A stretch of DNA of 34,804 bases from Chromera velia (lineage: Eukaryota > Sar > Chromeraceae). Shown here piece after piece: positions 6,530 to 33,155 of this stretch. Below the pieces are notes generated by a model, which ran no database searches, was not told where the DNA came from, and saw nothing but the letters and a program-made list of their open reading frames with translations. The stretch is taken from positions 17,501 to 52,304 of the forward strand of contig JAHBMJ010000294.1 in assembly GCA_018398765.1 (NCBI GenBank). The letters are read 5' to 3'. Numbering within the stretch: the first letter of the stretch is position 1; each line of letters starts with the position of its first letter. Both the position numbers and the translations under genes were made by a program.

Positions 6530-7485
6530 AGAAATCGGCAGACTTCCCGGCCCCCCCTCTTTTCCCATTTGGGTTCAAGAGTGGAAAAGAAACGAATGGG
6601 CGACGGAGTAGGTACTGAAGGAGGGAAGGCTCAGGCGTACTCAAAGAAAACTCACCCGGAAAGGTGACGCTGTAGAAAAAGAGGAGGTCTGCCTATCATT
6701 ACACTGCGAGTCCGATTGATAGACGTGTGGCATACCACCGGAGGGGTTAGAGAGAAAAGAGAGAGAGAGAGCCTAGGAGAGAGCCGCCTCACAAACTCCA
6801 GGAGTGACTGTCCATTAAGCTAATGGCATTCTTGCTGCAAGATACAGGGATAGAAGGAGAGGGCGAAGCAGCCGAGGAGTATCACTGACAGTCTTGGAGT
6901 GTCTCTGGTGCATGTGTTTTTTTAAAAAAAGTATGTTTGTTTGTGTAGATTTTAGAGCGCTTGACTGCACGCCAGGAGCCTGGCAGAGGCCGAAGAGAGG
7001 GGAAAGGAAGGGAAGAGCAGAAACGGTCTGATCGATTAATTGATTGATTGATTGCCGATGATCAGAAGAGCCTTCTTTCTTCTCTCCCTTTTTTTCTTGC
7101 TTCCTTCGTCAAGCCTTACTGAGATTGACCCATGCGACCTGACTCCTGCATAAGATTTCCATCCTTGCATATGTCTCCAGAATCTCCGGGGCGGTGCATA
7201 TTGGGATTTTAGAAATGTTGTATCTAAGCGAGAAGGAAGAGGTGTAGGTGCCAAACCACTCGAAAGCGACGTTCAGTTTCAAAAGTTTCTTCTACACCGT
7301 CCAGGGGAAGGAGGGGCCTCGATCTAGGCCTCAATCTGACTTTCTTCTTTTTTCTTTTTTTTTCTTTCCGAGTCTGCTGTCACTCTACTGCATGTCTGCA
7401 ATGAGTCACGATGTTTATGGAGGGAGGAGTCATCGCCTCACAGCTATGAGACATCATTAATACGATTCATCATAGCGTTGAGAGA
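6530..7485. other. About 950 bp without a supportable gene
   Basis: Contains a GA-rich patch (6750-6780), a (ATTG)n patch near 7035-7055 and T-rich runs near 7345-7370. ORFs are short and unlike protein. No RNA gene was recognised. Confidence 0.5.
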
Positions 7486-7493
7486 GGGGCAGC
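7486..7493. repeat. Left 8-bp target-site duplication of the hAT-type element
   Basis: GGGGCAGC immediately left of the inverted terminus, repeated exactly at 9104-9111 on the other side. An 8-bp duplication is the hallmark of hAT transposition. Confidence 0.85.
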
Positions 7494-10335: not shown

Positions 10336-10745
10336 TTACTGATGCTGTTCTGCAGGCATTGTTTGTCCCTGAGCCGCTCCGGCTGCCGCCTCAGTCTGAG
10401 GAGGCACCGCTGCAGGAGGGGCGACTGGAGGGGGAACGACGGGTGGCGGCGCCTGCTGATGCTGAGTCTGCAGCGCGGGAGGCGGAGGTAAAGGGGACGA
10501 GGGCCCGCCACCTGCCCCTCCCCCCACAGCTTCTGCTGCTGCCCCCACCCCTGCCGCAGCGTGCGGCTGTTGCTGCTGCTGCTGCGTCGGACTGCTTGGA
10601 TGAGGATGATTTGCCTGAGGCTGCGGTGCAGGGGGGGACGGAGACGCCGGTGCCCCTCCTCCCGCTGAAGAGACACCCGTCACGCCACCTACCCGCCCAG
10701 CTTGCCCGGGAAACGACCGGCCGTCCTTCATCCGAACCTGAGCAT
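10336..10745 (-). CDS. Giant gene, last exon (Pro/Gln/Ala-rich tail and stop)
   Basis: Starts HAQVRMKDGRSFPGQ in phase with the exon before, then becomes Pro/Ala/Gly/Gln rich with a QQQQQQ run and ends TMPAEQHQ-stop (TAA). The acceptor (cttgtgcataaag) is weak, so the exact start could differ. Composition is that of a disordered C-terminal tail. Confidence 0.6.
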
Positions 10746-10839: not shown

Positions 10840-11556
10840 CAGCACGTGTACGCAAAGGAAACGCTTGTGGGATGCACGCATCGCAGTTGCCTCTTGGATT
10901 CTGCCCCCTTTCCATCTGACGGACGCGAAGCGTGCGAATGGCCCGGAAAGCGAATTTTCGGGCGTTCGCAGCTGCGAGGTCCTGGGTTCGAGCCCCTGCA
11001 CCCTCACTTTTTCGTCCAAATTTACGAGGAAATCATGCATGCATGCCCAGCCAGCCACGCGGTCCCCGTGCAATTGTTTTTAAGTGCCGTCCAGAGCTTC
11101 GCTTTCCGGGCCACAAAGGCAAGAAAAGCGAACAAAATTAGGGGGGCATCGATCGATCAGAAGGTCCAGCAGAAAGGGATGGACGGGAGCCCCCTCACCA
11201 TGCACATGTATGTATGGATACATATGTTTTACCCTACAATGCAAAAGCATGCGCACAAAGCTAAAGAAAGAAGGAAAGACGCAGGCAAGCACAGCAACAA
11301 GAAAGGGAACGAGTGAGAGTAACGTGCCTCCAGAATTGCGTTCTCCTGCAGATTTAGGTCAAACGGGTTCTTCTCCTGGTCAATCTCGTCGCCCTGCATG
11401 CATGCAATGCGTACGGACGGAAGTAAACAAACACATGGACTGACTCTTTTGAGATCCTTGAGAAGTAGAGAATCGGTTGACGGTGCGTCTGTTGCGAAAA
11501 CTGAAGACAACGAGTGTTCTCTCTCTCTTTCTCTCTCTCTCTCTCTATCTATCTCT

Positions 11557-11619
<63 letters not shown>

Positions 11620-12347
11620 GAAGAGGAAGGAAGGAAGAGACGAAGGAAGAAACAGAGAAAGAGGAAACGGACCTCAAAGAACAACCTGATGTCTGCAGAC
11701 CTCACCCCGACGTTTCTGCTGTAGCTCTCAACCAGCTTCCTGCATGCAGTGACGCACAAAGAAAAATGCCCACATGGAACCGCATGCGTTTTGTGGCATG
11801 ACCATAAGAACACTGATGGAATCTCGTCATCCTAGGTTGAAGGACAGGCACCAAAGGGGTGTAGGAGGTCACAACCAGCTTCCAACCACGGCAGAGCAGA
11901 GCCATCAATCAATATACCGCTGGACGATTCGCAATAAACGAATAGAGCCAAACCCCAGCCAGACGGAGCAGAAGGAAGAAGGAGAAAAACAAAACAGGAG
12001 AAGACGAAGCACGGACACAACATGGCAAAGACTAAAGAAAAAAACCTATGGGGAAACACACACAGAGACGCAATGGAAAACCGTCCGAAACCAAAAAACA
12101 GGAGAGAGAGATCCTTTCACATTCCAACTCTCTCTTTCACCCGACAGACTGAAAGGGGAAAGGTGCGCGCATCACTTTTCGTTCTGCCGATTCTCTTTCG
12201 ATCAAAAAACGCCCGACTTCTACTCCATCTCGGTCACTCCGGTGCAACCGCCATCCCTCACCCCCGACTGACGAGAAAGGCGTCGTCACGGCAGCGTTGA
12301 AGCGCAGTCGGGGAAGCTCTGGCATCTGGATACCTGCAAGCACGCAT

Positions 12348-12387
<40 letters not shown>

Positions 12388-15300
12388 GCTTGAATGCATC
12401 TCACTTTGTGGACTGGCAGAAATATCACGCGACAAGAAGCTCCGTACCCTCCCAATGAGAGGGTGCGCTTCAGAGAGACTGACTTTGCTGCCAGTCCTTT
12501 CACAGACAGGCCGCCTGACTTCTTTCATGTTTTTTTTTCAATACAAACAGCATTCAAACGGGCAATCACAAAAGAACGAACACACAGGCGGAGGACAAAG
12601 AGACGGACAGACAGCCAGGCACCCACAAACCCGCCCCCCCCGACCTTGAATGAAGAGCGAGACCCAAATCTTCTCTGCGTATTGAAGGGAAGACATCACC
12701 ACCACCTCCACCTTCACACGCCCACCCATACAATAGTCGACAGGGGCTAGGTCAGGAATCAGCTGCAGCGTTCGTGCCAGGAGGAAGAACAAACACGTAA
12801 GAGGAGGGGGAAAGCAAGCAAAAAATTGAACCTTCACAGAAACAAAGAAGTACGGCCCAAACTCAATCACTTTGTCAGATGAGATCGAGACGAAGGACGC
12901 GATGAGCAGGGGGCGAGACGGAGAAGAATATAATCAGTGTGCGTATGGCTGCAGGAAGTGAATAGAGAACAGTGCTGAACAAAGACACAGGCTCAAGGTA
13001 TACTGAAGTAGCTTGGTGGTGAATAAGTCTGCGTGACACTGGAGCACGGCAAGGCGAAGCAGAGAAAGACAGACAGACGGTCTTTCTATGAACCGACAGA
13101 CAGACTGACCACTTCCTTGCCATCTCTCCATCTGAGCTCGAGGACTTTCTTGTTCACCTCAGGGTGCATGCTCTGGTAGTGCCTCAGGATCTTCCTGCAA
13201 ACATCGACCCACGCATATGTTGTTCAGTCTTGCTTGCGCGGCTTTCTTTCTTCGTAATTTCTCACTACAGAGCACCCGCTTTTTGCACCTCCTGATTCCC
13301 TCCCACGAGCGCCAAGACTACCGGCGAGCAATGAAGAACCGACCAACACACTGCATGAGAAAATGATTAGAAGAGAAAGGAAGGGCCAAATAAAAGCAAA
13401 CCGAAGAGTAGAACAAAGGGAAGATCGAACCGTCAAGAAAAAGATACAGAAGGTGTCCGAGCAAGAAAAAGGACAAAACAGAAGAAGTAAGGAGCAAAAA
13501 GTCGACAAAGAATATCAAGGAGAATCGATACTAAGGGAAGAAAAGAAAGAACCCCGACATGACCTGAAGGGCATCGCCGTCTGCACTCTGAAGAAGACAC
13601 TGTTGCTGTTGGCCCTCTCCACGCACACCTCGATCATTGCGCTCTTCTCACTGGGCGAACCCCCGCCTGTCATTTCAGCACCTGCAGGCAGACAGAGAAG
13701 AAGCAGAAAAGCTTGTGTGTATGTTATTTGAACGATGCAGATCCGTAGACAAAACTCTCCTCTCAGAGATAAGTTTCTCATTTCGGCCCCTACACGCACA
13801 ACCTCACACCGGAACACGGCAGAACAAAAGAGAAAAGCAAGGCAGCAATGCAAGCAAAGGAAAACAGAGAGAAAGAGAGAGATCGAAAGGACTGACGGAC
13901 CTACCGACCTGGGGTGAGGCCCATCTCGGGTTTCTTTCCGAAGGCGCGGGTCAGCTGCACGAGCAGATGGGAGGGCGGAAGGAAGAAGAGAAAGCACGCA
14001 GATACTCTTCGTTGTACTGCGTCATTCTTGTAGTGACTCGTCTCTGTGCCTACGGATATATTACTATAGACCTGTGAATATATGAAGAAACACATGGAGA
14101 CATGATGAATTGCCAAATGATTCAGAGGCATCGTATGTCTTCGTGTTTGGTTCTGCTTTTTGGCAGGCAGATACAGGGGGGACTCCTCTCCCCCCCGCTT
14201 CCGATTTCCACTTCCTCTCGGTCCGTACGTGTGTGTTGTAACGCATACCCGCTCCTTTCCTGCCTCTCTCTGTCTCTTTTTTTAATATCTTGCAGCCTCC
14301 ACTTCAGACTTCCCCTCCCCTCTGTTCCTCCCCGCCCAACCGTCTTGCAGAGTGCCGCGTGGTTTGCGGAGGCGAAGATGAACTTCTTGGCCTTCTGGCA
14401 GATCGCGGAGAGGAACTGGATGACCTGCACGAGAGGGGGGAGGGAGGGAAATAGAAGGGAACATGTGAAGAGATAGAAAGGGAACGGACCGACTGAGTGA
14501 GTGACGGCATCAATCCACAAGCAAAATCATACACTCAGAAAGGGAACGCGATGAAAGGAGAAACGGAAAAGACCGAGTGGGATGGGCAAAGGAAGGTGTC
14601 GAGTGAGGGCAAGCGATCCAAAAGACAGGTGTAAACAGAGACGCTAGCGAACAAACAAACGAACCCACAGAACAAACAAACAAACAAACGAACGCACACA
14701 ACAAACAAGCAAACAAACGAACGAATGAAGGTACAAACGAACGCACAGAACGAATAAACAAACAAACAAACGAACGCACAGAACAAACAGAAAAACAAAA
14801 AAAAAGACCCACATGTCCCGTCACTGCGCGTCCCCCATCCTCGGACTGCAGAGGGACTTGAGACAAGTCGACCTCCCGAGCTCGTGAGAGGAACGCCACG
14901 ATCAGAGGAAGAACTCCCGGTTTGCACTCTGACGGCTGGAGCCGCAGACATGTGGAGTAAGAAAGGAGAATCGCCTTCGACGCACAGCTGCAGACAGTCA
15001 CAACAGAGAAACCATGCGTTCTTTCACAGGACTGCTGCTGTGCATAATGCCGAAAGCACAGATAAAGCCACCCCCATGAAGTGAATGAAATCAACCAAAA
15101 GGAAACTCGAGCTCCTGCGGTGCCAGACGAAAGCACAAATGCACAGGGACCTGCTCTACACACTTGCTCAAATACACGCACACGAAGACAAACAGACCCA
15201 CCTGGAGCAGACTCTGCGGAGTCGCGCAAAATCAGGCAGAGACAGGAATGAGGCGATGTATCCCCCCACGCCAAGAGGGATCACCCTCTTTCCTCCCGCT

Positions 15301-18300
15301 CCAAAGGAAAGGAAGACTGAGGGTGCCGCCCTCCCACTGCTGCTCTCATCCACGCACGTGGCCTTCCTGTACCTGTGCGGAGGCCACACTACGAACCGAC
15401 GGCACGCCAGGCCGACAGGGTATCCGGCAGGGGGCATGTTCGGCTGTGTGAGTGGATACGGGTGGTGGAGGGTGTTGTGTCTGAGTCTCCGGGTTCCGTA
15501 GAAGACAGAAGTCCTGCACGCACGCGTGCGTGAACGAAAAACAAAAGCTGAGGTCACGCTAAGTCTCTTGCTGTCCTGATGAATTCTGTTTGGCGAGGCG
15601 TGTCGTATGGCGTGCCTCCCTCTGCTGTTCATGCTGTTTGTTTGGGAGTGAGGCCAGGACGGAAGCTTGCAGACGGACTGAAAAGTGGAGATGCACAAAA
15701 GAATAACAAAGAACGCTAACGCTGAAACAGCACACGATTGAGACAGAGAACAGACCAAAGGAAGGACTGGAAGACTGGAAGCGAGAGAGTCAAACTGAGA
15801 CACGACGCCTCTCTGTGTCAGCCAAGCAATCCCCCCCGACTGACCAGAAATGTTGTCTGGCCACGCGTATGTGTTCGGGTTGTCTTCTCATCGGTGCGGG
15901 GAATGGCATAGGCAACACCGGGTTGTTCGTCCTCAAAACGTCCAGGGCATCGTCGAGGCAGTCCTCGTGCCTCTGCATGGTGCGGAGTGCAGACTGGACA
16001 CTTCGAAAAGAGGGTTTGTCTCTGTCGTCCCACACATTCTTCAACATACGGTGACGTTCGAGCAAGTCCGAGGAGGCATTATGGATAATTCTCAAGGCTC
16101 CCTCAAGAGATGTTGACCCTGTGATGTGTTCAAACATCGGCATTTTGGGACCAGGCTCCAAGGGGGGAAGGTCTCTGTCAAGCTCCTCCTCCTTCCCCAA
16201 GGCCTGTGCCTCCGCTTCCTCTGCCCCGCGTCTCTCCCGTCTCCTTTTCAACGCCTGCCGTCTCCTGAACTCGACAGTGCGGTGGAAGTCTGAAGGGGTA
16301 GGGCGGGGGGTCGGGGGGTCGTTTTTCCACCAGTCATCGTCGTCTTTTGTGTGGGACCGTCCGAAGAGGTTGGGCACACCTGACTTCTTGCCCTCCTGCA
16401 GAGACCTTCTTCTTCTCTCAATCAGGGTCGGAAGGACCATGGGCAGAGAATGGGACGCAGAGGAAGAGGATGCTACTGCTGCGGTGACGGCGCGAGCAGG
16501 GGGCGCAGGGGGAGAAGAGGAGACGGAGGGGAAGGCAAAGGACTTCGGGCGGGGTTTCCGACGCCACTTGTACCTCTTCTGCTGCTGTTCTGCAGCACCC
16601 GAAGAGGCGACTGCCGTCACACCTGTACCTGAAGCACTGGCAGCAGCAGCACTCGCAGGAGACGGAAGCAAATTGGGGGGCAAGGGGTGAAGAGGAGGAA
16701 GCTGAGCCTCCGCCTCGGCCTGGGCATCTGCCCCTGCCTGCTCTCCTTCGTCTGCCTTTTCGTCCTCCTGTGCCGCTGTAATCTCTTCCAACGACGCACC
16801 CCCCCTTTCCCTGGACGGCAAATTTCCCTCCGATCCCCGGAATGAGACGCGGCGCGCCCCGTCCCGGAAGACCACTTTCTCAGCCACGGCAACGTTTCTT
16901 GGAGCGAGTGCGAGGCTGAAAAGCGAATGGAAGTTCACCACCGGATTCAACGGTACATCATACTCTCCTGCGACTGCGTGGAAGGTCTTGACGTCTAGTT
17001 CGTTCCACAGGGGGGAAACGCCAGGGCCCCGCTTTCCGACAGCACACGAGGGCACGGACCCTCCGAAAGAGGATCCTCCAGAGTGTTTTGCCTTCTTTCT
17101 CATGATGGTGCTGCGGCAAGAGCCGAAGATGGTCTTTTTGCAGAAGGGACAGGTCGCCTCGAATTTTTCCTCTTGGACTAGGTGGCATCCCTGGGTGGCG
17201 CCTGAAGCGCTCTTGAACATCGAATGATGAAGTCGTGCGGTGAGGGGTTTGGGGGGGTGTTTGAGCTTGGGCGGGGGGGCACTGGGGGGTTTGGCGGGTC
17301 CGGGTGTGACTTTTCTATGGGCAGTCGCGCCGAGGAGGGAGAAGGGCGTCCATGGAAGGGGAGAGGGAGACGGGAGGAGGCCGTCAGACAACCAGGAAAC
17401 TCCTGGGGGTGGGGGTGGGGGTGGGGGGGAGTTTGAATGTGAGGATGTGTGCGGAATGAAGGAAGTGTCGATTCCGAGGGGCACGAAGGAGGGAGGATGC
17501 AAGATGGGGGGGGGGGAATTGTCTTCTCCTTCTTTTCCGTTTTCGTTTTCGGAATCCGAATCGGATCCGTCTCCCTCCTTCGCCTTCTCCTTCTGAAGTC
17601 GGGCACTTCGCCGGGGTGGTCCCTTTCCTTTTTTTGATGCAGACAGTCCTTTTGGAGCTTTCTCTTCGCCTTGTCCTCCCTTTCCCTTGCTTTCTCCTCT
17701 TTTCTGCATCTTTTGACGTTCTGTTTCTTCGGCACTTTTCTTGCCTACTCTCTCGGAGAGTCTTCTTGAAAAGGAAGAAGCAGCAAGATGAGGGTGAGGG
17801 GGTGAGGGTGATCTCGATTTGGTTTCTTTGTCCCCTTCTGCGGAATGTTTCTGCAGCCCCTTTCCTTTTCCTTTCCGAGAGGACGGGGCTGCCTGTCCTC
17901 CTGTTTTCTCTGCCACTTTTCCCCCTTCCCCCTTTTCCACAGAGTCACTCTGAGGGACAAAAGTGACTCCTTCTGCAGTGATCTTCGGCATGTACGAGAT
18001 CCCACAGCAGGAGACGGGCTGGCACTGTTGGCGTTTTCTGATCAGGGAGGCCGTTTCTGTCGACCCCGGGCTTTTTGCCAACAGGGGAAGCGTGACGTCC
18101 CCATGACTTCCAAACGAGACGTGCTCCCTCGCCTTCGCCCCACTGATCAAAGGCTCTCGGCGTTGCAACTCACTGCACGAGGCGTAGAGACCCAGACGAT
18201 CGGCTGCAGGCCAGCCGGGCGTGTTTCGGACGACTGCTGAGATGAGTGTGGGCGTGATGGGAGAATTTGTGAGACAGGCTTGGAGGTACGAGTAGTCTCT

Positions 18301-21300
18301 CAATAGCTGATCTCGTCTCTTGACTAACCAACGAAGGGGAGTGAGACCATCTGGAGGTTTGGTCTTGGAAGTCAAGTAAGAGGATAAGGCTTCGGGGGGG
18401 TCTGTGTGGGGGTCTGTGACTGTTTTGACGAAGTCTTTCAGGCGCGCTTGAGAGAGAATGGCTTGGGAGAACTGAAGGGTGCTTGACTCAAAAAGAAGGG
18501 AGGGACGGCTGAGAAAGAAGGCACGGGCTGTCTGGAACAATTTCTCTGGACCGAGACCGTCAACGGACACTTCAGCCTTGTCTCCGCTTTCTCCTAATCT
18601 TTGCTTTTCTTTTGTCTCACTTCTCCCCCCTTCGTTTCCTTTGGACGAACTGGAAGAGGAGGAGTCGACAGTACTTTTCGCGTTCTCTCCCTTCTCTTCT
18701 GTCCCCTCAATTTCTCTGAAGTTCTCCTCCTCGCGAAAGAAATCTCTGTTCGCAGCGACTCTGTCTCTTTCGTCTGAAAGACCTAGAGCGACGGGATAGA
18801 TCAGACGCGACAGCTCGGAATCCAACCACGCCAACCGAGATCCACGAACTTTCAAATCGTTCTTCTCATCTTCACTGCTACTCTTTGACGAATTGCCTCT
18901 GGACTCTCCCCTCTCTGGCTCCTTCTTCTCTTTGCCACTTTTCTTTGCCTCCACTATCACCCCTCCGTTTTTCTTCCGCCCTGACCGTCTGAGAGACGGC
19001 CTCTCTGCATCTCCCGCATTCTCCCTGCCCCTTTCTCTCCCCTTCCGTTTCCCTTTTCCTTCCTTCAACTCCTCTGCGTTCCCCCCACCTGCTGCAGAAG
19101 CAGAAGCAGGAGACCCAGTCTTCTCTTTCTTCTTTCCTTCGTCCTTCTTTTCTGTCGACACACTCCGCGAATCCTTTCTCTCCTCCTCCTCCTTCTCCAC
19201 TTCCACACACCCCCTCACCCCTCCAGACTTGATACCTGACTCCTCCCCCCNNNNNNNNNNNNNNNNNNNNNNNNNNNNNNNNNNNNNNNNNNNNNNNNNN
19301 NNNNNNNNNNNNNNNNNNNNNNNNNNNNNNNNNNNNNNNNNNNNNNNNNNNNNNNNNNNNNNNNNNNNNNNNNNNNNNNNNNNNNNNNNNNNNNNNNNNN
19401 NNNNNNNNNNNNNNNNNNNNNNNNNNNNNNNNNNNNNNNNNNNNNNNNNNNNNNNNNNNNNNNNNNNNNNNNNNNNNNNNNNNNNNNNNNNNNNNNNNNN
19501 NNNNNNNNNNNNNNNNNNNNNNNNNNNNNNNNNNNNNNNNNNNNNNNNNNNNNNNNNNNNNNNNNNNNNNNNNNCAGCCGAGTCCGGCCCCCCCCCTTCC
19601 TTCTCAACTTCCACAGTCTCAATGTTGGCAAGCGCAGAGTTCAAGTCAGACATTTGCGAAGAGCTGAAAGGGCCCCCACCTCCACCCAGGGCTACCGCAG
19701 GCCCCGGCAGAAACCGCATGCGCCCCCGTCTTCTCAAAGAGTAACCTTGCGGCTCGTCAGACTCAAACAGCGGGCCCAGTTGCGGAAAATTCTGCAACAT
19801 CGGAAGCGGATCGTAAAGCGCTCTCTCCGCGGATCGTAAAGCGCTTTCGGTCTGCTCCGCGTCGCCTGCTTGAAAGGTCGACAGCCCCTTCTGCAAGACA
19901 AACGACAAGGGGCGTAAATTCTTTGTACGCGGAAATGTTCACACACGCGAGTATATGCACATGACCACACTTTCCTTTAATCGGGAGGGCAGAAATTGTA
20001 ATGAAGACACCTAACAGGCAGTCCGATCCAGAAGAAGGGAACAGAGCAGGAGGGCAGAAAGAACGAAAGCCAGGAAAAACAGAACCGCATGCGACCCCTT
20101 TACTACAAGGAACATCTATGAGTATTTACTGTGTGAGAATCACGGTGCATATAGACAGGACAGTTGGGCTTTGTTTGGTGATTCCTCCCAACCAACCCTT
20201 CACCGTCTACACACCTTTTCCCTCTCCACAACTTTCCACAGAAACCGAAAGACCTCCTGAAAGGCAGGGAGACGCGAAGGATCTTCAGCCGAGACGCGAA
20301 GCATAGCCAGTGTCTGCTGTGCGAGTCGGAACTCTTTTCGTCTTCGTGCGAACCCCTCAAGGACATGCTCATCGTCCGTCTCTACCTTCAACTTCAACCT
20401 GCACGGCCTTGCGGCGACCATCTGCGCAGAAGAAGAGGAAGAAGAAGAAGAGGGGCATTCAGGTGCCCCCTCTTCCTCTTCCACTTTCTCTTCTGCCTCA
20501 TCCTCGGTCTCTCCAATTTGCAAACTCTTCGTGTTCTGCGCAAATCCGTAGTCCAAAACTTTCAGCATGGTCTCAAAACCCTCGAAGGAGACTTTGAACA
20601 GGTTATCGGACCGAAGTTGAATCCCGTACGCATGATGGAACAAGACCTGTAGACAGTTCGTCAAACCGTCAACAGCAAAACCAACGGCCAAAGCCCAACT
20701 GCTCTCCTGAGCCTCCACCGCTGGAGGCGACGCAGGAGGTACCAGGGGGGGCGGTACGGAGATCACCTTGCCGGCAGTTGCTGGGGGGTTTGAGGCATTC
20801 ATGAACTCTCGCCTGCCGTGCGGACGCCCGGGCCCGACCCTCGCGCTTGTTGCCCATGGCAGGGGCAACCATGTGAAGGGCAAGGGAGAGGCTGGAGAGA
20901 GTTTCAAACCTGTACCCTTCTCCTTCTGTTTCTCATTTGCTCGACGGATGAGTGACATATTCTCTTTGTCTCCTGCATTCTTCTTCTCTTCACGTCCTTT
21001 TCTCATCAAAGCCTCTCTTTCTGCCCTGCGTAAGTTCCGGGAAGAGGGCGCACCCATATCGGGTGACTGGACAGCCCTCGGGGCACGGGGGGGACTCTTG
21101 GACTCCTTTTCTTTTTCCGTTTGTTTTTCTCTTTGTTTCCCTCCTCTTTCGTCACTCTGAAAGGGACGCGGCCGTTTTCGGTCGCCCTTCCCCTCTTTGT
21201 CTCTGTCGCCTCTGCCAGCAGGAGTGGCTGCCTGGATGGTGTGAATGGTCTCGATCGCTCTCAACTTGGCCTGTCTGGCGTTGGCACTTCTGCTGGATTC

Positions 21301-24300
21301 CTGCCCATCCTTTCTTGCCGAGCGCGAGGCTTTGCCTCCACGAGACGGAGAGACGGCAGTGGGGTGGCGTGTCGGAGTGACGAGACGGGAGGCACGGGTC
21401 TGTCCTCCTCGTCGTCCTTCTCCTGCTCCTGCTGGTTGGGGAGGGGGGGGGGATGCCCGAGAGGTTTTGTTGAGAGGAACTGCGGATTTCCCTTTCTCTT
21501 CCTTCTCCTCTCTTTCTCTCTTAGCCCCCCCCCCTCTTCCTCTCCCTTTCCCCTCGTCGTTCTGGAGAGCTCTCTGCAGCGTCCTTGACGGGCCTGCGGG
21601 AGATGAGATGGATGCGTGCACTGAGATGATGATATGAATGTGCGAAGCGGCTGTATCTGTGTACGCGTGAAGAGCCTTCCGCTTCATCCTTGCCGGGCTT
21701 GATGCGGAGGGAAGCTGACGGGAAGAGAGAAGAAGGCTAGCGAGAGGAAGGTGGTGATGCATTCAACAACCGGCAGTGTCTTCAGTTGCCGTATTCTATT
21801 TCTCTGAATGAGGGGCAACGAAAAGGAATCCAAAAGGACCACGAAAGCGAGTAAAAGACACAGGAAAAGGGGGTACAGAAATGAATTGAACGGGGCGGGA
21901 AAACGTGTTTTTAATTCGGGAAAGAGATTCCAAAATAAGGCTAGGAAGGTCGACTGCCTCACTGACTTTTGGCCAAATCGCTTTGAGATGGTTCTCTCTT
22001 TGAGGCTGAAGGAGAACGGGAGAGTTGGGGGGACTTTTCTCTTTTGTCTCCCCCCCCCATTCCTCCCTTCTCCCTCCTTCCACAGCCGTGCTGTCGGTGC
22101 TCTCCATTTTCGGGTTCACGGTCGCTTCCAGGGGCAGAAAGGGATGGGGTGGGTGAAGGGGGGGAAGGGGCCGGTGGGAGTCGGGCTGAGATCGAAAGGG
22201 CTGGCAATTCGCACCGTCCGATGGGCACATACATGAGGGGAGGGGGGGGGGCAGATGCGTTTGCCTGGATGGGCCCTGAAGACTCCATTTGGAAAAACCG
22301 TTTTGCAAATTTGGAACCTCTCTTCAACTTCTTCCTGCTCTCCTTTCCTCCCTCCTTAGGAACCTCTTGAGGTTCTCCTGAGCTCTCTTTTTCCTTTTTT
22401 TCTTTTTCTTTGTCTCTCTTCGGTGAGGAAAGTCCCTTGTCCTTTCCTCGTCCTTTCTTCTCAGGGGGGGGAGGAGAAAGAGGGCGCTCAAGGGAAGAAG
22501 GCTTCGAGCGGACAATGGAACCGTTCACCATTACTACTGGAGACGGCTTCCGATTGTTTCGATTCGCTTTGTCTGTCTCCAGAGGTCCTCCCTGTCCACT
22601 GTCCTCATTCCTCACATTCACGCCATCTTGTGTTCCCATGTCCTCATCCTCATTCTTCTCTCCTGCTGCTGCTACTGCTGCTGCTGCTGCTGCTGATGCT
22701 GATGATGACGATGACACTTCCGCCTGCCTGCGTACAGCCCCGTCTCCCTCCTTCGAGTCTTTCGTTGCCTCGGAACCTGGAATGCTTGTCAAAGCTCCTC
22801 TCTTTACCCTTACCCGAAGTCGCGTTCTCTCAGACACTCCCCCCTGCTCTTTCTTATCCTTTGGACCTTCCTTTTTCTCGTCAAACTTTCCTTCTCCCTT
22901 CTGAGGATGCACAGGCGCACCCCATCCGGCTCCTCCAAGACCCTCCTTCTCAGACAACCCCCCCTGCTTCATAGATTCTTTCTTCCCTTTCGCCCTCCCT
23001 CCAGACTTATCTGCACAATCGCCCCCTCCAACTCCTTCATACACACCCGACGACCCACTCCCTTTCTCTCCCACACCGCTCTCTCTCGTCTCTTCCGCAA
23101 CCCCCGCCCCTTCAGAAGTTTTCAGCAACTTTCTCGGCCCACCGTCTTTCCCCGCACCCCCTGTGGAAAAAAATCTCTCCTGTACGAAATCTGCACAGAC
23201 CCATGCACATAGAAAAGAGAAAGCATGAGACTCAACAGAAAACAAATCCGAAAAGTGGTCTTAAATGCAAAAGCACGAGCGCTTCACTTCTCTGGAAAAG
23301 TGAATTTCTTTTTCCTCTTTCTTCCTTCCGTCTCTCCGTCTGTCTGTGTCTGTGTGAGTTGCGGCTGGAGGAAGGCACACGCACCCACCGAAGAAGACCA
23401 TCTCACTCAGACAGAGGCACACTGATTGCTCGACACATACACAGACAGATAGATTCTACACTGAGGCCACGGGACCACGCAGACAAAGAAAGAAGAAGAA
23501 GAAGAAGCAGGCAGGGCACAGACCCACCGACCGAATGCGTTGAGAGGATCAAAAGTCTGCACCCCAAAACGTCTCCACACTGGAAGGCCCCGAACGTACG
23601 AATTCTGTACAAGAACCCTGCGCTGTCTCCTCTCTCTTGCCCTCTCCTGAAGCACCACCGCCAAATCACCCCCCCCTTCTTTCGCCTCAACCTCACTCTC
23701 CGCTCTTCCTGCAGCCCCCACCGCACTCTTTGTCTCCGACCCACACAGACATTCCCCCCCCTCCCCAAACGCCTTTGCTCCCTTTTCATTTCCTTTTGCA
23801 ACCTCCTCTTCTTCATCTCCCCCTTCCGACTCGCTATCGCACTCCTCTGCCACGCTCTTGAACTTCATACGGAGCCTCTCGGACCCCGACCGGATCAGAG
23901 ACCTCATCCACACACCCATCCACATACGAGCTGATTGTAGTCCAACACACTGGAAAGGCTGCGGGCTGTCCAACGCAACTTTCTGGTGGGGACCGACGGG
24001 CAAAAGAGGGGTCAGGTTGGTCAGGCAACACAGAAAACGGGGCTCACACGCGAACATGTCTGGTCCAAAATGGACAGAGGGCGGCGCCTCGGCCAGAATC
24101 TGGTGGAGACGCGTCAAGCGGGGAGGGCGCGTTTTGCGCGCACGGCAAGTGCCTTCCCCATCGATCCGTTGCTGCTCTGCAACTAGACGCCCAACCTCCT
24201 CCATGTCGAAGAGACGGGTGGTAGGAGACAGAGAGGCGTCTGCACGGGCTCCTTCTTCTCCTTCGTCTCCTTTCCTCTCCATTTCCCCAGCTTCTTTCTT

Positions 24301-27300
24301 CTGTGACGCCACTTCCTCAACTCTCTCACCTTCACTTACCACCACTTTCTCTCCCCCGTCTCGGTCTTCCTCCTGTCTGTCCTTTCCCTCTGCTGACTTC
24401 CCAGAAGGACACTCAGCAGATCCACCTGCAGGGGAGGGAGGAACGGAGAACCCACAGACATCTCCCTGCTCCCCCAGCTCACTCTCATCACCTTCGAGCT
24501 CCTCCACCCCACTTCGGAACTGCATGACCGAAGGCTGGTATCCCAGCACCTCTTTCATTCCGTCCTCTCTTCTCTCTTTGTTGCGCGCACCCTCAAGCAA
24601 TGGGGCCCCTTCACCCTCTGCTGGATCGTCCTCTCGGGACCTCTCCATTAGCTCGGCATACCCAACAGGACCTCCGCTCTTCGCAAAGTTCTGACAGGAT
24701 CGAAGGGCACTCACGACCTTGAAGAGAGCCTGGGGGAATAGTGGCGTGACCTCAGGATGAAGAGGCATCCACACTGCGGGGGCAGCAGTTTGCTTCTGTT
24801 GTCTTTCGTTGTCGTTACTTTCCCCCCTCTCTCTTTCTCTGTCTTTGCGCAACAGAGAGATTCCTCCCGATGCCGCTTCTCTGCAGAGTCGGAGTGCCTT
24901 CTCTCCCACAGAGAACCCGGACGACAGTCTTTCTGAGAGAGGGACGGAGGGACGGTCTACGAAAAGATGGAAAGGGAGATCTGCAATTACTCGTGTCTGC
25001 TGCAAGCAGAGCGTTGCGATCCGAGGATTCGTGCGGGGATCTGGGAGGTGTGTCGGGATGGGTAGTGTGAAAGGAGGATCTTCCAGACACCACCGGGAGA
25101 AGGGCCCTCTGTACGCCCCCCCATCCGAAGGACTGTCGGGATTGAATCTTCGAGAACTCAGCAGAGCGTCGAGAAGGGGGTTCTCTTTCGTGTCTGTCCA
25201 CATAACAGAAAGAGGCAAGGGACCTGACGCACGCAGAGCTACAGACTTACACGATCTCAGAAGCGCCCTCTCACAACCCGGTAATTTCTTCAGAGATTCG
25301 AATGACTTCTCCTCATCAAGCGAACGAGAGGGAGGACTTAGTCTTGAAGCGAGGGAACCGAGGGGGGAGGCAGAATGGAAGTGAATTGCCGTTGCCCCCC
25401 CCCCTCCTGCTTGCGGCCCTGTAGCAGCAACGGGGGGAGATAACACTTCCCATATCAACCCCCCGCCGAGAGACGCCCCGATACCTCCCCCACTGACCGA
25501 AGGCGGCTCTGCTCCTGTGATCGGTGCAAGTCTAGGGGGTTGGGGCACAGTAGAGGCGCGGTGCTTCCCTCCATGCTGCCCCTTTCCCCCCCCCGTAGAG
25601 TTGCGAAGAGCGCGTGTTGCCGTGGCGAGTGCCTGTTCTCTCTCGAGTGTGCGGGCTGTTTCGAGAAGTTCTGCCGTTCTGGAGAGACCCGAGAGGCCCC
25701 CCTCAGCGAACAGACTGGAAGGCAAAGGAGAGGAACGAGATAGAGAGAGGGACAGAGAACCCTCACACACCCCAACAGACGCACTCTCACGAGGGCCCTC
25801 CAAGGCTGCCTTCCACCTACAAGGATGGGGAAAGACAGAAAGGAAGGAAGGATGGGCGGGACACATGCATGCAGAGAATCAAAGAGGGCCGGTGACCAGG
25901 AAGACAAAGGAGAGAAGCAGCGGACACAGCAATAGAGAGAGTGCGCATTGTCTACAGGTGGTGTACACAATGAGACTAATCATAGACTCGTCACTGTTGT
26001 TACGAAGTTGAAAATTCGTACTCATTTCAGTCCAGGTTGGTCTTTGACAGACTTACGATGCGACTGCTGGCTAAACACACGAATACAAAAAAGGGAGATC
26101 GGCAACAGAAGAACTGGCGAGGCAAAATTCTCTCAACCCAGACGCATTGTCCGAGCCACTGCGCCTCAATAGAATGAACTGTTTCTCGTTTACCCATTGA
26201 AGCAACCACCTTCGACTCCAATCGAAACAAAATCGGTGCTACTTACTTGTCAATGTCTCTTTCAAGGTTCGCGATTTCATTGAATCCCGTCTCTGCGCAG
26301 GTCATCATGGCCTGTGTCCTTGCCAGCATGCCGACCAGAAAGTTATTCACTTCTCTCGACGCACACATGGCCATCCAGGCACTTGCCTCCTCGGCAGAGG
26401 CCGTCGAGACGTCCCAAGTAGTCAACCCTCCCTGGTAGTGTGCCGTTCTGTCGGGTGCAGGGAAACGACTGGTCAAAAACGCAGCGCGGAGATTCGCTAT
26501 TTGTTCAAACGGGTTTCTCACCCCCTCCAACATCGTTTCAAAGGGTCCCCCTGTGAATTGACTCAAAGTGGAGCCGAAATTCAAACCGGGAGGAACAAGG
26601 GGAGGGAAGTTTGATGGGGGTCTCTTCCTTTCGCCATCGAAGTCCCCTTCCCCCCCTCCAGGCCCTGGAGGCCCCTTGTCTCTCTTCCCCGCCCCCCCGT
26701 CCTGCTGTCGAGTCTTTGTTCGCGAATCCTTTGCTCCTCCCTTCCCTCCTGTCTTCTGCTTCGGAGGCGCAGGGGAGGAGGGCGCAGGGCTGGAAGGCTC
26801 GGACAACTGCGCGGCCAGACCCGGCAAGGGCAACGGTGGGTGGGCCTGCAGGAGGGTGAGGATATTCGGGAATCTGCGGAAGTCCTGTGCTGGTGGTTTG
26901 GTCTTCTTCCACGAATGTGTCGGCACAGGGAGAAACACGGTCTCATCACAACCACCTGACACCGACACTGTCCCTGCCGCGCCTTTAGACACAAACACAG
27001 GTCGACTTTGAAGTGTTGCTAGGTGGTCATCAAAAAACCCACTCAGTCGGAGGAGTTTTCGATGGACACCGTCATTCCGTCGTAGAAGGCCTTCAGAGCG
27101 TCGGAGGGTGATGGCGGCGTGTCTGAGCACCATAGCAACTGCGTTTCGCAATGCAGCGTTCGAAGGAAGTGTGGGATTCGGGCCTAGGGCTGCCACAGCC
27201 ATGGCGGCGACGGTCTGACCAGGCTCACCGCCAGGCAACCCGTTGAGCCCCCCGCCGCCCCCAAAGTTTTCAAACTCGAAAGGCCCGAGGAAAAGTAAAT

Positions 27301-30300
27301 TCTGGGCAAACGGATTCGGCAGAGGACCCCCCCCTCCACCTGCGGGGCCGTCTGGGAGGGCATCTTCAGGGGGGGGGGGAAGAGGCGGGAGGGGGGGGCC
27401 GGCTTGGGGTCCCCCTCCGAAGGGCACTAGCGTCGCCTGTACAGTAGCCGGCACCCCGGCTGCGCCCAGCATGGCTTGAAGCAAATTGGCAAACTGCCCC
27501 GGCGCAGGACCCAGAGCGCCCCCCCCCGGTCCGGCGCCCCCTAGAGGCCCTTCCTCGTCTCCTCCTACGTCCATATCTGAATCACCACCTTCGCCTTCCT
27601 CTGGCTGACCTGCACCGCCTCCCCCTCCTCCTACCCCCTCACTTCCACTGCCTGCGCCCATCACGGCGTCGCCATCTGCCGGCTGCTGCTCTGGTACAGG
27701 TACGGGCCCAGTCACCGGTGCTGCAGCTGCTGCGGCGGCGGCAGGTGCGACTGGTTCGTCCACTTCTGCAGGAATCGGGAGGGGCAGAGGGCTGTGGGGG
27801 GTCAGCGGAGGGGGGGCTGAGGAGGAAGAGGGGGCAAAGGGGCTGAGGAAGGCCGGTGGCTGCACACTTGCCGGTGGAACAGGTGGAGGTAAAATGTCTC
27901 CGTGTGCTGGCTGATTGGATGCAGAGGAAGACGAAGAGGAGGACGAAGAGGAAGAAGAGGGGTTCGGAGGGTGCGGTTGCTGCTGCTGCTGTTCTTCTTC
28001 TGCTTGTGCCTTTTGTTCCGGCTGTTCAGGAGCAGACTTCACTTGAGGGGGGTGAGAGGAAAATTGCTGAAGGGAGGGGAACGGGACGGATGAAGACAGC
28101 GACGAAAAAGGAGCAGACGCAAAAGAAAGTGGCGGAGGCTTCTTGGCATCACCCGCGTCTCCTGAGACGGCAGCGCCTGTCTCGAGGGGTTGTGCTGCGG
28201 CGCCTGTGCCTGTCCCTGTGTCAGGGGCGCCTGTCAGACACGGCACAGCCAAAGACGAGGAAGAAGAGGAAGAGGAAGAAGACGCAGAGGATGGTAGAGG
28301 CCCTGCTCCCCTTCCTCCACCGAGAGAGAAAGAGGGCGCAAAGGGAAGCCCTCCCCCCCTCCCACCTCCCCCTGCCGTGACAGGAGCCAGAAAGGGAAGA
28401 CCCCTTCCTCCTCCTCTTGGTGCCCCTGCCTGTTCACCCGAGGAGCCTTTCATAGCCGCAGAGAGAGAAGGAAACGAAGAAGATGCCCCTCCGGTCTCTG
28501 CTGTTCCAGACGCCGCTCCTCCTCCTCCTCCTCCCTCTGCCTGTGCTTGTTCGTCTGTGTTCACATTCGGTTTGGTTGTGGCAGGTGCAGATGCAGACGG
28601 GGACAGAGACGGACTCAGCAACCCACCCCCATTCCCTTCGCTATCTGGAGACGGAGACGGAGACGGCAAGTCCACCAGGAGACCGCCTTGAGGAGACCTG
28701 CAGGGAGATAGAATGGAAACAAAAGAAGGCAGGGGAAAGAGCACGGGTGCATGTGCAGACGCGCCGTTTGACCACAAGTTTTGCTTGCAATGATGCCTCC
28801 CTGTCTCTCTGTCTGTTTGCCGTTCACAGAACGGAACGTGACCGAAAAAGGAAACAGATGCCGAAAGGAAGGAACGCGGTCCTTTCCTGTTGATTTGAGG
28901 GAGGCTCTACCAGGAGGTAACATCCTCACTCCAAAAAAGATAAACAAACAAGAACAACAAAGAGACCACACGGCCACTTTGACAGACCAACTTCTGTCAG
29001 ACTGCACGAGACAGTCAGAGTCAAGGTTCTGGCCGGTGTGAGAAGGTGAGAAGCTGTGTGAAAAAAATAAGAAAACGAGACGGACAGACAGATCGACCCA
29101 CCCACCCAGGTGCCGAAGAACCCGAAGACTGAGGAGGAAGATCCCCCCCTCCCCCTGCTAGAGCTTGGGGGAGGGCCACGTCGGCACCTGTAGGCTCTCC
29201 TCCTCCTTCCGTCTCTGTTGGTACTAGAGGGAGCGGGTTTCCTCCTTCTCCTCCTCCGGTTTGGGTGGGCACAGGGGCAAGGGGAGGCGGTGGAGGGGGA
29301 GGAGCCAGAGGGGCATCTGCTTGACCCGGTCCCGGAACAGTCCCCGGTGGCGGTGGAGAAGGAGGCGGATCTCCTCCCTGTGTCCCTGATCCTGGCTGCT
29401 GCATGCTGTCCATCTTTTTTCGAATTTTGATCAGAGTGTCAATTTGCTGCTTGACCCCCTGCAGTCTGTTCAGCTGCCTCTCCTGATTGGAAATTTGCGT
29501 CCTCACACCCGACTCTACTGTGTGCCACTCTGTGGGCTTCAGAGTGCGTTCGACATGCGCGGTCAGAATCTGCAGTCACAAAACAGTGGTTGCACGATGA
29601 GGCAAGACGAACGAGAGCACGTTTTTGACGAAGAACAAAATGTGACTCCCTTTGCGGGCTGCCTGAAAGGTGCGGATGGACGGCACCATCGGACGGCATT
29701 CTGGCCAGGATAGTAGGATACAGAGCGGGCGGAAAGGAACGTAGAAGAAAAGAGGGGCACGGGAAAGGCAGAGAAAACAGCAGAGAGCTTTTGTTTCGGA
29801 AAGTGTCACTGAGCCTGGGTGCTTACCGTATGACCTTTCTTTCAAGACAAGATTTTGCACTGCTTGAGTCTGCATCTCTAGAAAGAGGACGCGCAAAAAC
29901 GGAGAGAAAACAAAACAACAACGGCAGTCCGTCTGTGTCCCTTCTTGCACCTTCCCCCGACCCTTCCTTTCCCACCTGTCTCGGCAGCGGAGGAGCGTAG
30001 CAGCATTCCTCCGGCATAGTAGGGGTTGTGAGTTTGAGTCCTGTCTTCTTCGGGAAGTCCCTTCTCCGGACCCTCAAAGAGAAGATGATGGACCCCCGCG
30101 CCGCCTGACTGCAGTAGACGTTCTTCCACGCCGCAGCGCTACAGCACCCGTGCCCTCTGACACCCTGGGCCTCCATCAACTCGTGAAGAAGAGGGGAGCC
30201 CAGAAGGACGGCCTGGCAGTTTCCCAGACGTACAGGCGTCTTCTTGCGGTCGTCGTGAACACACGTGTACTTATTGAGTCTCAGAGGCATAAGGAGGGAC

Positions 30301-30908
30301 AAGAGGTCTTCCAGCTCAGGGTCGTCTACAACTGCGTTGGTGTGTCTGAAGTCTTCGAACGAGAGCCAGTCGGCAGGTGGAGCGACTGGGAGGCTGTGGT
30401 AGTGTACGTACACGAGGCGGGAGATGAGCACGTCGGGACAGAGAAGGGCGGGGCCGGCTGGGTCCACTTCTGAGACGACGGGGAGGCTGAGACCGGCAGT
30501 CTTGCAGATGGCGCGCAGGTTTTCAACCATGAAGTCGTGCAGCTTTTTGAACGCGGCATCGAAGTCGGCATACACTGAGTGCCCACAGGGAGAGTAGATT
30601 GCCTGCAGAAAAGAGGGGAGAAGAAAGAGTGCAAAAAGAACAGGGCGAAAAACCGTCTGGGGAGATCATTGCAAGGGGGGAGGCAGACTGACGAATTCCC
30701 GGCAGTCGTGGGGAGTGAACATCGTGGTGTAGTAGAAGGGCGTGCTGCGGAAGCGGGACCATGCTACACGCCAATCTGTAGGAAAAATGAGTGGCGAGGT
30801 CAATTCATCTGAAAGGGTCAAAGGCGCATAGCCGTCCTGAACAAACTTTCCGACAGCTGTCTGGACCTTTGCGGCCCTCGCAGGGTTGACCCGCCGTTTT
30901 GCTTCCAT
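10336..30908 (-). CDS. Giant multi-exon gene, about 4,704 codons, C-terminal tandem SUMO-like domains; function unknown
   Basis: ATG at 30908 (MEAKRRVNPARAAKVQ), stop TAA at 10336-10338. Roughly 20 exons can be linked with every splice phase consistent. The coding sum is 14,115 nt, divisible by three. Layout: residues 1-220 globular; about 220-350 coiled-coil prone (ISNQERQLNRLQGVKQQIDT); about 350-2870 mostly disordered Pro/Gly/Ser/Lys/Glu-rich sequence with ordered islands; about 2870-4215 one 4-kb exon with a possible zinc-binding patch. Then many small exons follow: an F-box-like segment (about 4290-4320), a helical segment, two SUMO-like domains (about 4410-4575) and a Pro/Gln-rich tail. 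I do not recognise the family. SUMO-like pairs are known in Rad60/Esc2/NIP45, which act in SUMO-linked genome maintenance, but those proteins are far smaller. Two or more adjacent genes remain possible. The most likely break is near 15514-15844, where a TGA at 15790 would end the upstream frame if the proposed intron is wrong. Confidence 0.5.
10808..10838. repeat. (GA)n microsatellite (intronic)
   Basis: About 30 nt of GA repeat in the last intron of the giant gene. Confidence 0.9.
10932..11112. repeat. SINE-like or foldback repeat with GGCCCGGAAAGCGAA inverted ends and a pol III B-box-like motif
   Basis: GGCCCGGAAAGCGAA starts near 10940 and its perfect inverted copy TTCGCTTTCCGGGCC is at 11098-11112. 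Between them, 10985-10995 reads GGTTCGAGCCC, a perfect tRNA-type B box (GGTTCGANNCC). TGGCCCGGAAAG about 48 nt upstream is one base off an A box (TRGYNNANNNG). The left 23 bp (10932-10954) recur as an exact reverse complement at 4683-4705, and the right end (TAAGTGCC...CTTTCCGGGCC) resembles the reverse complement of 4711-4740. It lies in the last intron of the giant gene. Confidence 0.55.
11324..11393 (-). CDS. Giant gene exon: SUMO-like domain 2, C-terminal part
   Basis: Acceptor gcatgcatgcag and donor gttact. Reads GDEIDQEKNPFDLNLQENAI and then LEA, in phase with both neighbours. It would form the second half of the second SUMO-like fold. Confidence 0.65.
11516..11615. repeat. (CT)n(CA)n microsatellite (intronic)
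   Basis: CT run of about 75 nt with CTAT and CCCT interruptions, followed by about 20 nt of CA. It is the reverse-complement version of the CA/GA compound repeats at 749 and 1863. Confidence 0.95.
11706..11739 (-). CDS. Giant gene micro-exon (34 nt)
   Basis: Acceptor catgcag, donor gtgagg. In phase it encodes KLVESYSRNVG, completing TTPFSKLVESYSRNVG, the PFxKLxxxY signature helix of a SUMO-like fold. The fit of motif and phase across three exons supports it despite the small size. Confidence 0.6.
12273..12333 (-). CDS. Giant gene exon: start of SUMO-like domain 2
   Basis: Acceptor cgtgcttgcag. The frame reads IQMPELPRLRFNAAVTTPFS. Two donors compete: gtcagt at 12272 gives the phase needed for KLVESYS, while gtgagg at 12261 would give the wrong phase. 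The gtcagt site is chosen. Confidence 0.6.
12345..12385. repeat. (CA)n microsatellite (intronic)
   Basis: About 40 nt of CA repeat immediately upstream, in gene sense, of the exon at 12273-12333. Confidence 0.95.
12645..12762 (-). CDS. Giant gene exon: end of SUMO-like domain 1 and start of domain 2
   Basis: Acceptor gctgcag, donor gtcggg, phases 0 and 1. The first 20 residues, LIPDLAPVDYCMGGRVKVEV, match the loop plus last strand of a SUMO-like fold (pattern L.P..TP.dL.m.dgd.idV). The rest (YAEKIWVSLFIQ) is a fitting first strand of the next domain. Confidence 0.7.
13110..13194 (-). CDS. Giant gene exon: core of SUMO-like domain 1
   Basis: Acceptor gtttgcag, donor gtcagt, phases 2 and 0. 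Reads KILRHYQSMHPEVNKKVLEL then RWRDGKEV. This is the main helix and the following strand with the xFxGxxV turn of ubiquitin/SUMO-like folds (compare LRF.FDG..I in SUMO). Confidence 0.75.
13564..13681 (-). CDS. Giant gene exon: first hairpin of SUMO-like domain 1
   Basis: Acceptor ctgcctgcag, donor gtcatg, phases 1 and 2. A Gly/Ser linker (EMTGGGSPSEKSA) leads into MIEVCVERANSNSVFFRVQT and AMPFRK, the two-strand hairpin ending in the (T/M)PFxK start of the helix that is diagnostic for SUMO-like domains. Confidence 0.75.
13909..13954 (-). CDS. Giant gene exon (46 nt)
   Basis: Acceptor ctcgtgcag and donor gtcggt. Reads LTRAFGKKPEMGLTP, in phase with both neighbours. It is a linker between the helical exon at 14341 and the SUMO-like region. 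Confidence 0.65.
14341..14424 (-). CDS. Giant gene exon (84 nt, helical)
   Basis: Acceptor ctcgtgcag, donor gttggg, phase 0 both sides. Reads VIQFLSAICQKAKKFIFASA and then NHAALCKT, an amphipathic helical segment reminiscent of alpha-helical repeats, but too short to assign. Confidence 0.7.
14655..14795. repeat. AAAC/GAAC tandem repeat (intronic)
   Basis: Runs of (AAAC)n with GAACGCACAGAAC punctuation repeating roughly every 40-60 bp, within the intron after the exon at 14813-14935. Reverse-strand frames through it (SFVCLF-type) are by-products. Confidence 0.9.
14813..14935 (-). CDS. Giant gene exon (123 nt)
   Basis: Acceptor gcggctccag, donor gtgggt, phase 0 both sides. Reads PSECKPGVLPLIVAFLSRAR and then EVDLSQVPLQSEDGGRAVTGH. 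The LPLIVAFLSRA part resembles an armadillo-type helix. A nearer AG (ccgtcag) would shift the phase and is less likely. Confidence 0.6.
15198..15513 (-). CDS. Giant gene exon with F-box-like segment
   Basis: Acceptor gcgtgcgtgcag puts the exon in phase with the 4-kb exon upstream. The end is either 15198 (gtctgt, phase 0, fits the next exon) or 15202 (gtgggt, phase 2, better consensus). Near the end, VIPLGVGGYIASFLSLPDFA then RLRRVCSRW follows the F-box pattern (lP.ev...IlsfLsl.dl.rlr.Vcr.W). F-boxes recruit proteins to SCF ubiquitin ligases. Here the motif is internal and divergent, so the call is tentative. If the gene is split, an internal ATG at about 15437 (MPPAGYPVG) could be a start. 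Confidence 0.5.
15845..19890 (-). CDS. Giant gene, largest exon (4.05 kb) spanning the N gap
   Basis: Acceptor gtcttgcag; begins KGLSTFQAGDAEQTESALRS. After a Gly-rich tract comes the 324-n gap, then long Lys/Glu/Ser-rich disordered sequence with ordered islands (ARAFFLSRPSLLFESSTLQF; LRWLVKRRDQLLRDYSYL). A Cys patch follows (CPFCKKTIFGSC near 17150, with His and Cys further on) that could bind zinc, then an LWNELDVKTFHAVAGEYDVP region. Near the end it has a helical stretch (SLEGALRIIHNASSDLLERH). Proposed donor gtcagt at 15844. Without splicing the frame would stop at TGA 15790-15792. The frame is continuous across the gap only if the n count is right. Confidence 0.65.
19251..19574. other. 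Assembly gap (324 n)
   Basis: Run of 324 n inside the 4-kb exon. Flanks are C-rich on both sides (tcctcccccc and ccccccccttcc), suggesting a poly-Gly/Glu low-complexity tract that broke the assembly. Confidence 0.99.
20215..21593 (-). CDS. Giant gene exon (1.38 kb)
   Basis: Acceptor catctcccgcag, donor gtgtgt, phases 1 and 0. The N-terminal two thirds is basic and disordered (KREREEKEEKGKSA and similar). The C-terminal third is ordered: SSWALAVGFAVDGLTNCLQV, LFHHAYGIQLRSDNLFKVSF, then an acidic and poly-Ser spacer, then RRKEFRLAQQTLAMLRVSAE and FQEVFRFLWKVVEREK. I do not recognise the ordered part. Confidence 0.7.
21967..23190 (-). CDS. Giant gene exon (1.22 kb, disordered)
   Basis: Acceptor gtctgtgcag, donor gtcagt, phases 1 and 1. 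Lys/Glu/Gly/Ser-rich throughout, with a poly-Ala/Ser stretch encoded by GCA/GCT-type trinucleotide repeats near 22665-22715. No ordered domain is visible. Overlapping plus-strand frames are shadows. Confidence 0.65.
22663..22712. repeat. Trinucleotide repeat (CTG/GAT) in coding sequence
   Basis: About 50 nt of (GCT)n passing into (GATGAT) on the plus strand, encoding the Ser/Ala run of the minus-strand exon. Such tracts change length by slippage. Confidence 0.8.
23532..25816 (-). CDS. Giant gene exon (2.29 kb)
   Basis: Acceptor catccttgtag, donor gtcggt, phases 2 and 1. Begins WKAALEGPRESASVG, continuing the coiled segment of the previous exon. Ordered islands alternate with acidic and Ser-rich linkers. 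Examples: LLDALLSSRRFNPDSPSDGG; IATLCLQQTRVIADLPFHLF; FPQALFKVVSALRSCQNFAK; LVAEQQRIDGEGTCRARKTR; RMWMGVWMRSLIRSGSERL. None is recognised. Confidence 0.7.
26247..28697 (-). CDS. Giant gene exon (2.45 kb, Pro/Gly/Ser/Ala-rich with ordered C-terminus)
   Basis: Acceptor atctccctgcag, donor gtaagt (best consensus in the gene), phases 2 and 2. The first 500 residues are Gly/Pro/Ser/Ala/Gln low complexity. Ordered segments follow: NAVAMVLRHAAITLRRSEGL and PFETMLEGVRNPFEQIANLR through CAETGFNEIANLERDIDK. If the donor is not used, the frame stops at TAA 26243-26245, one codon later, so termination here is the alternative. The phase match to the next exon (DIDK|WKAALEG) favours splicing. Confidence 0.7.
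29106..29529 (-). CDS. Giant gene exon (coiled coil then Pro-rich)
   Basis: Start chosen at acceptor gcccacag because its phase fits the exon at 29827. A stronger-looking acceptor (gtgactgcag, exon start 29569) gives the same reading frame but not the right entry phase. Reads SGVRTQISNQERQLNRLQGV and KQQIDTLIKIRKKMDSMQQ, a heptad-like coiled coil, then a Pro/Gly-rich tail. Donor gtgggt within a gtgggtgggt stretch. Confidence 0.6.
29827..29877 (-). CDS. Giant gene exon (51 nt)
   Basis: Good acceptor (cctctttctag) and donor (gtaagc). In phase it encodes MQTQAVQNLVLKERSY, helical and continuous with the coiled coil downstream. Confidence 0.6.
29976..30602 (-). CDS. Giant gene second coding block (one exon, or two split by a 53-nt intron)
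   Basis: Acceptor cttttctgcag at 30603. Globular sequence: AIYSPCGHSVYADFDAAFKK, FMVENLRAICKTAGLSLPVV, DWLSFEDFRHTNAVVDDPEL, RLNKYTCVHDDRKKTPVRLG and SPLLHELMEAQG. From about 30160 the same frame becomes implausible (CCSAAAWKNVYCSQ). Another frame from 30108 reads GVHHLLFEGPEKGLPEEDR and TQTHNPYYAGGMLLRSSAAE. A 53-nt intron (30109-30161, gtcaga...ctgcag) or a frameshift would reconcile them, and the phase into the next exon supports the switch. Not recognised by family. Confidence 0.55.
30693..30908 (-). CDS. Giant gene exon 1 (start codon)
   Basis: ATG at 30908 with purine context (aaagATGga). Encodes MEAKRRVNPARAAKVQTAVG and on to FTPHDCREF. Donor gtcagt, phase 0, fitting the exon at 30602. 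No signal peptide. An upstream non-coding exon cannot be excluded. Confidence 0.6.
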
Positions 30909-31643: not shown

Positions 31644-31651
31644 AACTAATG
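31644..31651. repeat. Right 8-bp TSD of the nested MITE
   Basis: AACTAATG directly after AGCCTG, identical to 31159-31166. The foldback arm resumes with AAGAGTCAAATG. Confidence 0.9.
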
Positions 31652-32104: not shown

Positions 32105-32110
32105 GCATAC
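32105..32110. repeat. Left 6-bp TSD of the 1.04-kb insert
   Basis: GCATAC, repeated at 33150-33155. The right arm of the foldback reads continuously through ACATAC at the matching point. Confidence 0.75.
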
Positions 32111-33149: not shown

Positions 33150-33155
33150 GCATAC
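33150..33155. repeat. Right 6-bp TSD of the 1.04-kb insert
   Basis: GCATAC, matching 32105-32110, immediately before the arm resumes as TGTTGCTTG. Confidence 0.75.

Follow-up and report, generated by a model that had tools for sequence, protein, structure and literature searches.

Tandem SUMO-like domains near the C-terminus of a putative giant RENi-type protein of Chromera velia

Does a locus of Chromera velia encode an adaptor of the RENi type, i.e. a relative of S. pombe Rad60, S. cerevisiae Esc2 and animal NIP45/NFATC2IP? The question is raised by 34,804 nucleotides of contig JAHBMJ010000294.1 (positions 17,501 to 52,304; C293:17501-52304 in our numbering), here called the window, for which a preliminary description had proposed two SUMO-like domains (SLD1 and SLD2) spread over six exons at 11324..13681. 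All of the peptides quoted in it are encoded there on the minus strand, with consistent splice sites and phases. The tandem itself was confirmed with profile searches. The Pfam Rad60-SLD profile found two stretches in the joined protein (E = 4.2e-12). Searched singly, SLD2 gave an E-value of 1.1e-9 and passed, but SLD1 (E = 0.054, 13.8 bits) stayed below the cut-off of 23.8 bits. A SUMO profile scored 17.4 bits for SLD1 and 34.6 bits for SLD2, and none of 2000 shuffles per domain reached these values; the maxima were 5.9 and 6.6 among the 1707 and 1578 shuffles that received a score. Judged from the sequence, there are two ubiquitin-fold domains in tandem, of which SLD2 is clearly and SLD1 probably SUMO-like. 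A diverged first and a clear second SUMO-like domain were thus found, as in RENi proteins.

A SUMO modifier carries a di-Gly shortly past its last strand. The genome's own two SUMOs (on contigs C560 and C145) have it, and the translation of SLD2 lacks it at that position. The earlier statement that no C-terminal di-Gly is present therefore holds for the SUMO position, but a GG does occur in the tentative tail exon, 14 residues beyond the GG position of the two SUMOs (by eye). If the weak-acceptor exon 10745-10336 is correct, SLD2 is followed by some 130 residues of tail, and the pair would lie near the C-terminus rather than at it.

The six exons carrying the SLDs (13681-11324, minus strand) have AG and GT at all borders and compatible phases. 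Their acceptors were ranked by a leave-one-out score among the 340 AGs of 15700-10300, and the ranks were 1 (13681), 14 (13194), 92 (12762), 4 (12333), 8 (11739) and 12 (11393). The acceptor at 12762 is weak by score but is backed by homology, as SLD1's top PDB alignment crosses its junction (KEV joined to LIPDLAPVDYCMGG). A simple gene finder, used with a weaker and a stronger intron penalty, gave four of the six exons exactly in both runs. It departed by using acceptor 12711 instead of 12762 and by lengthening the 12333 exon to 12150; it also took an acceptor at 10995, and the weaker penalty added an exon at 12467. Where the two disagreed, the homology-supported splice model was retained. 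SLD2 probably completes its last strand in a further, tentative exon, whose acceptor at 10745 is weak (rank 77 of 340) and fits in phase. Together with it, the eight exons of the SLD region encode 352 residues ending at TAA (Table 1). Two other acceptors for the last exon, 10995 and 10971, were dropped because both are located in a dispersed repeat with at least 50 other matches in the genome. This repeat occupies about 200 bases of the last intron (10913-11113, plus strand), and its matches were counted with 40 of 94 first-look candidates scored. By eye it has inverted-repeat ends (TGGCCCGGAAAGCGAA / TTCGCTTTCCGGGCCA) and contains a tRNA-like GGTTCGAGCCC.

Table 1. Exons and open frames assigned to the SLD locus, from the upstream end (window coordinates).
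Feature	Position	Strand	Basis or remark
Long open-frame chain	15845..30908	-	Mostly Pro/Gly/Ser/Ala/Glu/Lys-rich; may make up most of this protein's N-terminal side; spans the N gap 19251-19574
Exon with F-box-like segment	15202..15513	-	Gene finder; sub-cut-off Pfam
Exon faintly suggestive of leucine repeats (by eye), without Pfam match	14813..14987	-	Gene finder
Two exons directly upstream of SLD1, helix-like by eye	14424-14341 and 13954-13909	-	Splice model, gene finder
SLD1 strands 1-2 (SAMIEVCVERANSNSVFFRVQTAMPF)	13564..13681	-	Splice model; gene finder agrees on borders; SUMO profile alignment
SLD1 helix and strand 3 (RKILRHYQSMHPEVNKKVLELRWRDGKEV)	13110..13194	-	Splice model, gene finder, SUMO profile alignment
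SLD1 end, roughly 8-residue linker (by eye), SLD2 strand 1	12645..12762	-	Splice model
SLD2 strand 2	12273..12333	-	Splice model, Pfam, leave-one-out acceptor score
SLD2 helix and strand 3	11673..11739	-	Splice model, Pfam, gene finder, NIP45 alignment
SLD2 acidic C-terminal half	11324..11393	-	Splice model, Pfam, gene finder
Last exon (tentative): completes SLD2 strand 5, then Pro/Gly/Ala/Gln-rich tail to TAA stop	10336..10745	-	

The layout resembles that of RENi proteins in the adjacent pair near the C-terminus, the diverged first and clear second domain, the short linker as in animals, the acidic second half of SLD2, the low-complexity sequence that the uncertain upstream model would place N-terminal of the domains and the lack of a conjugation di-Gly at the SUMO position. 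On the other hand, the apparent size exceeds theirs about tenfold, SLD1 is preceded by an F-box-like exon of sub-threshold score and by some 300 residues whose complexity is ordinary, and a putative Pro/Gly/Ala/Gln-rich tail follows SLD2. On balance, we consider it somewhat probable that the locus encodes a RENi-type adaptor of the SUMO pathway. The interpretation suggested before, a RENi layout with built-in binding modules behind an F-box-like segment on an enormous protein, is supported in part.

In human NIP45, the mutation Asp394Arg, picked by homology to a Rad60 mutant, ends UBC9 binding (PMC10497417). Numbered backwards from residue 419, Asp394 falls on the Asp of FFFDG, and the Glu of FFEG in SLD2 (codon 11675-11673, the last of exon 11739-11673) aligns with it. 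SUMO is likewise acidic in this column; therefore the acid speaks for E2 docking but is no evidence of RENi descent. The second half of the domain holds 8 acids and 1 base in SLD2 (as cut), 6 and 5 in SLD1, 9 and 2 in SUMO2, and 6 and 3 in SLD2 of NIP45. Key contacts of SUMO2 with SUMO-interacting motifs (SIMs) are Q31, F32 and I34. The aligned groove reads QFKIK in SUMO2, RFNAA in SLD2 and FFRVQ in SLD1. The groove of Rad60 SLD2 is also obscured, through different residues; of the two S. pombe domains only SLD1 is essential, and the role of SLD2 is believed to go beyond E2 binding (PMC2946365).

For a RENi-type adaptor, SLD2 would be a SUMO mimic unable to be conjugated, to which the SUMO E2 (Ubc9) is expected to bind with its back face. 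Of the groove that SUMO has between the helix and strand 2, SLD1 keeps more than SLD2 does. It would be expected to contact a second partner, namely a SIM-bearing protein, a SUMO ligase or the E1, and any contacts of the groove type would be its own. The long low-complexity part may act as a tether or scaffold steering SUMO conjugation to chosen targets, probably nuclear. A SUMO pathway is likely present, because the genome (177.8 Mb in 4040 contigs were searched) contains the two SUMO genes with GG, E2 genes (eight matches to UBC9, the best at 42%, with SUMO-E2 identity a candidate only) and two zf-MIZ matches over the cut-off, which are SP-RING candidates.

The exon-by-exon Rad60-SLD search of the genome gave 30 matches, and the translations of 22 were inspected by eye. 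Four are single SUMO-like domains (C560, C145, C3545 and C3153) and 18 are ubiquitin-like; none of these 22 showed a further SUMO-like tandem within one open frame. The C3153 protein (C3153:2500-12090, around 6750-7530) is encoded in one frame of 276 residues and ends in a single SUMO-like domain without di-Gly; its N-terminal part is unrelated to that of the window protein (by eye). The open frame at C3545:24800-26200 is close to the C145 SUMO, but ends in TGC where C145 has VGG. A polyubiquitin gene with 76-residue units in tandem lies at C3441:65148-68360. Against viral contigs, three pattern matches were obtained and no relative was confirmed by a search sensitive to close relatives only.

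How far the protein extends upstream is the next question. Long open frames succeed one another on the same minus strand, and the gene finder links 30908 to 10336 into a protein of 4618 residues (32 exons) under one intron penalty and of 4792 residues (22 exons) under the other. The gene finder was trained on the window's own frames and is thus circular, and some of its borders in the SLD part deviate from the splice model. In steps of 100 residues, much of the 4792-residue model, itself uncertain, is rich in Pro/Gly/Ser/Ala or Glu/Lys/Arg, while such a composition is absent from its first 400 residues and from some 300 that precede SLD1. Nine upstream stretches scanned with Pfam gave no match over the cut-off. 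Searched against the genome for paralogues, exon 30602-30234 and the F-box/helix stretch matched nothing but their own locus, apart from one hit with an E-value of 0.37. We infer that a single giant protein carries the SLDs. Alternatively, the SLDs could close a separate smaller gene starting near 15.5 kb, the giant protein being a joining artefact, which is compatible with the other readings. The long upstream frame stops at 15790, and the giant model passes through an assembly gap of 324 N (19251-19574) within its longest open frame. However, a high-scoring donor (GTCAGTCG after 15845) is in phase with a high-scoring acceptor at 15513 in both gene-finder runs, the splice score behind this junction having been partly trained on those very sites. 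We regard a separate gene as possible but rather unlikely.

Descent is a further matter, since kinship of the tandem to RENi and to SUMO is not separable by sequence. The two SUMOs of the genome share the fold and are among the sequences closest to SLD2. A lineage-specific fusion, in which SUMO sequence was inserted twice into an unrelated scaffold without RENi descent, would still yield a non-conjugated SUMO mimic; we hold it to be unlikely. In contrast to SUMO, a free modifier with GG, the window domains are internal, have no GG at that place, and SLD2 has lost residues of the groove.

SLD1 might instead be a ubiquitin fold of the Ras-association (RA) type, so that the protein would pair an RA-like with one SUMO-like domain. 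The RA domain of RGL1 has the ubiquitin fold and gave a weak full-length PDB match to SLD1. However, it shows no likeness to SLD2 (Z = -1.1) and its biology is different; SUMO makes up three of the seven other PDB matches of SLD1, and no shuffle equalled its SUMO-profile score. Pfam (E up to 10) lists Rad60-SLD and two zinc-finger models for SLD1 and no RA family, with the proviso that HMMER filters remove most matches above about 0.1. The RA reading is thus very doubtful.

The F-box-like segment ahead of the SLDs, as it had been called, does resemble two Pfam F-box families, which match the same stretch of about 20 residues, but with 14.3 bits (cut-off 24.3) and 13.4 bits (cut-off 20.5) over only half of the profile. 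Its single PDB match (E up to 10) is unrelated to F-box proteins, and an F-box identity is not claimed. For these reasons it is highly improbable that the exon is a true substrate-receptor domain of a Skp1-cullin-F-box (SCF) ligase, through which the SLDs would present the protein or its targets to the ubiquitin ligase as SUMO mimics. More far-fetched still is a polypeptide of about 4,600 residues in which a Skp1-binding module of F-box type and a built-in SUMO-mimic pair, carried on the chassis of a RENi protein, form a hard-wired bridge between SUMO and ubiquitin.

Several other features of the window were noted. An 842-base perfect direct duplication (829-1670 / 1891-2732) possibly arose from the assembly. 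Nested inverted repeats (31644-32113 / 34132-34609, 91%; 33148-33452 / 33856-34142, 86%) lie near the right end, where the contig terminates. On the plus strand, 5882-6313 encodes an RRM protein (RRM_1, E = 2.2e-17) whose N-terminus, by eye, is hydrophobic and signal-like, and an 83% repeat (5998-6187 / 6316-6505) suggests tandem RRMs. At 3764-4381 the minus strand has an open frame resembling ankyrin, which scores 23.4 bits with Ank_2 against a cut-off of 27.3. A tRNA search found none.

RENi proteins join SUMO conjugation to genome maintenance and are described from animals, fungi, a slime mould and plants (PMC549199). Searches of PubMed Central found nothing on Rad60-SLD in apicomplexa, on a Rad60 SUMO-like domain in Plasmodium or on alveolate Rad60/Smc5. 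For Chromera velia and SUMO, none of the listed titles concerned such a protein, and the word SUMO is absent from the main text of the chromerid genome paper (PMC4501334). For tandem SUMO-like domains only Esc2 was returned. No protein with both an F-box and a SUMO-like domain appeared by title and abstract start.

The organism is photosynthetic, because 58 matches to the light-harvesting family PF00504 were found exon by exon in its genome. A tandem-SLD protein here would extend the RENi layout to another lineage, that of a photosynthetic relative of apicomplexans, and suggest that this layout tolerates extreme N-terminal growth. If the bridge were true, the protein would be a scaffold in a photosynthetic alveolate, with one long flexible chain holding both an SCF ubiquitin ligase and, through SLD2, the SUMO E2. 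For the RENi-type adaptor, the prediction is sharp: one Glu, that of FFEG, would be needed for E2 docking.
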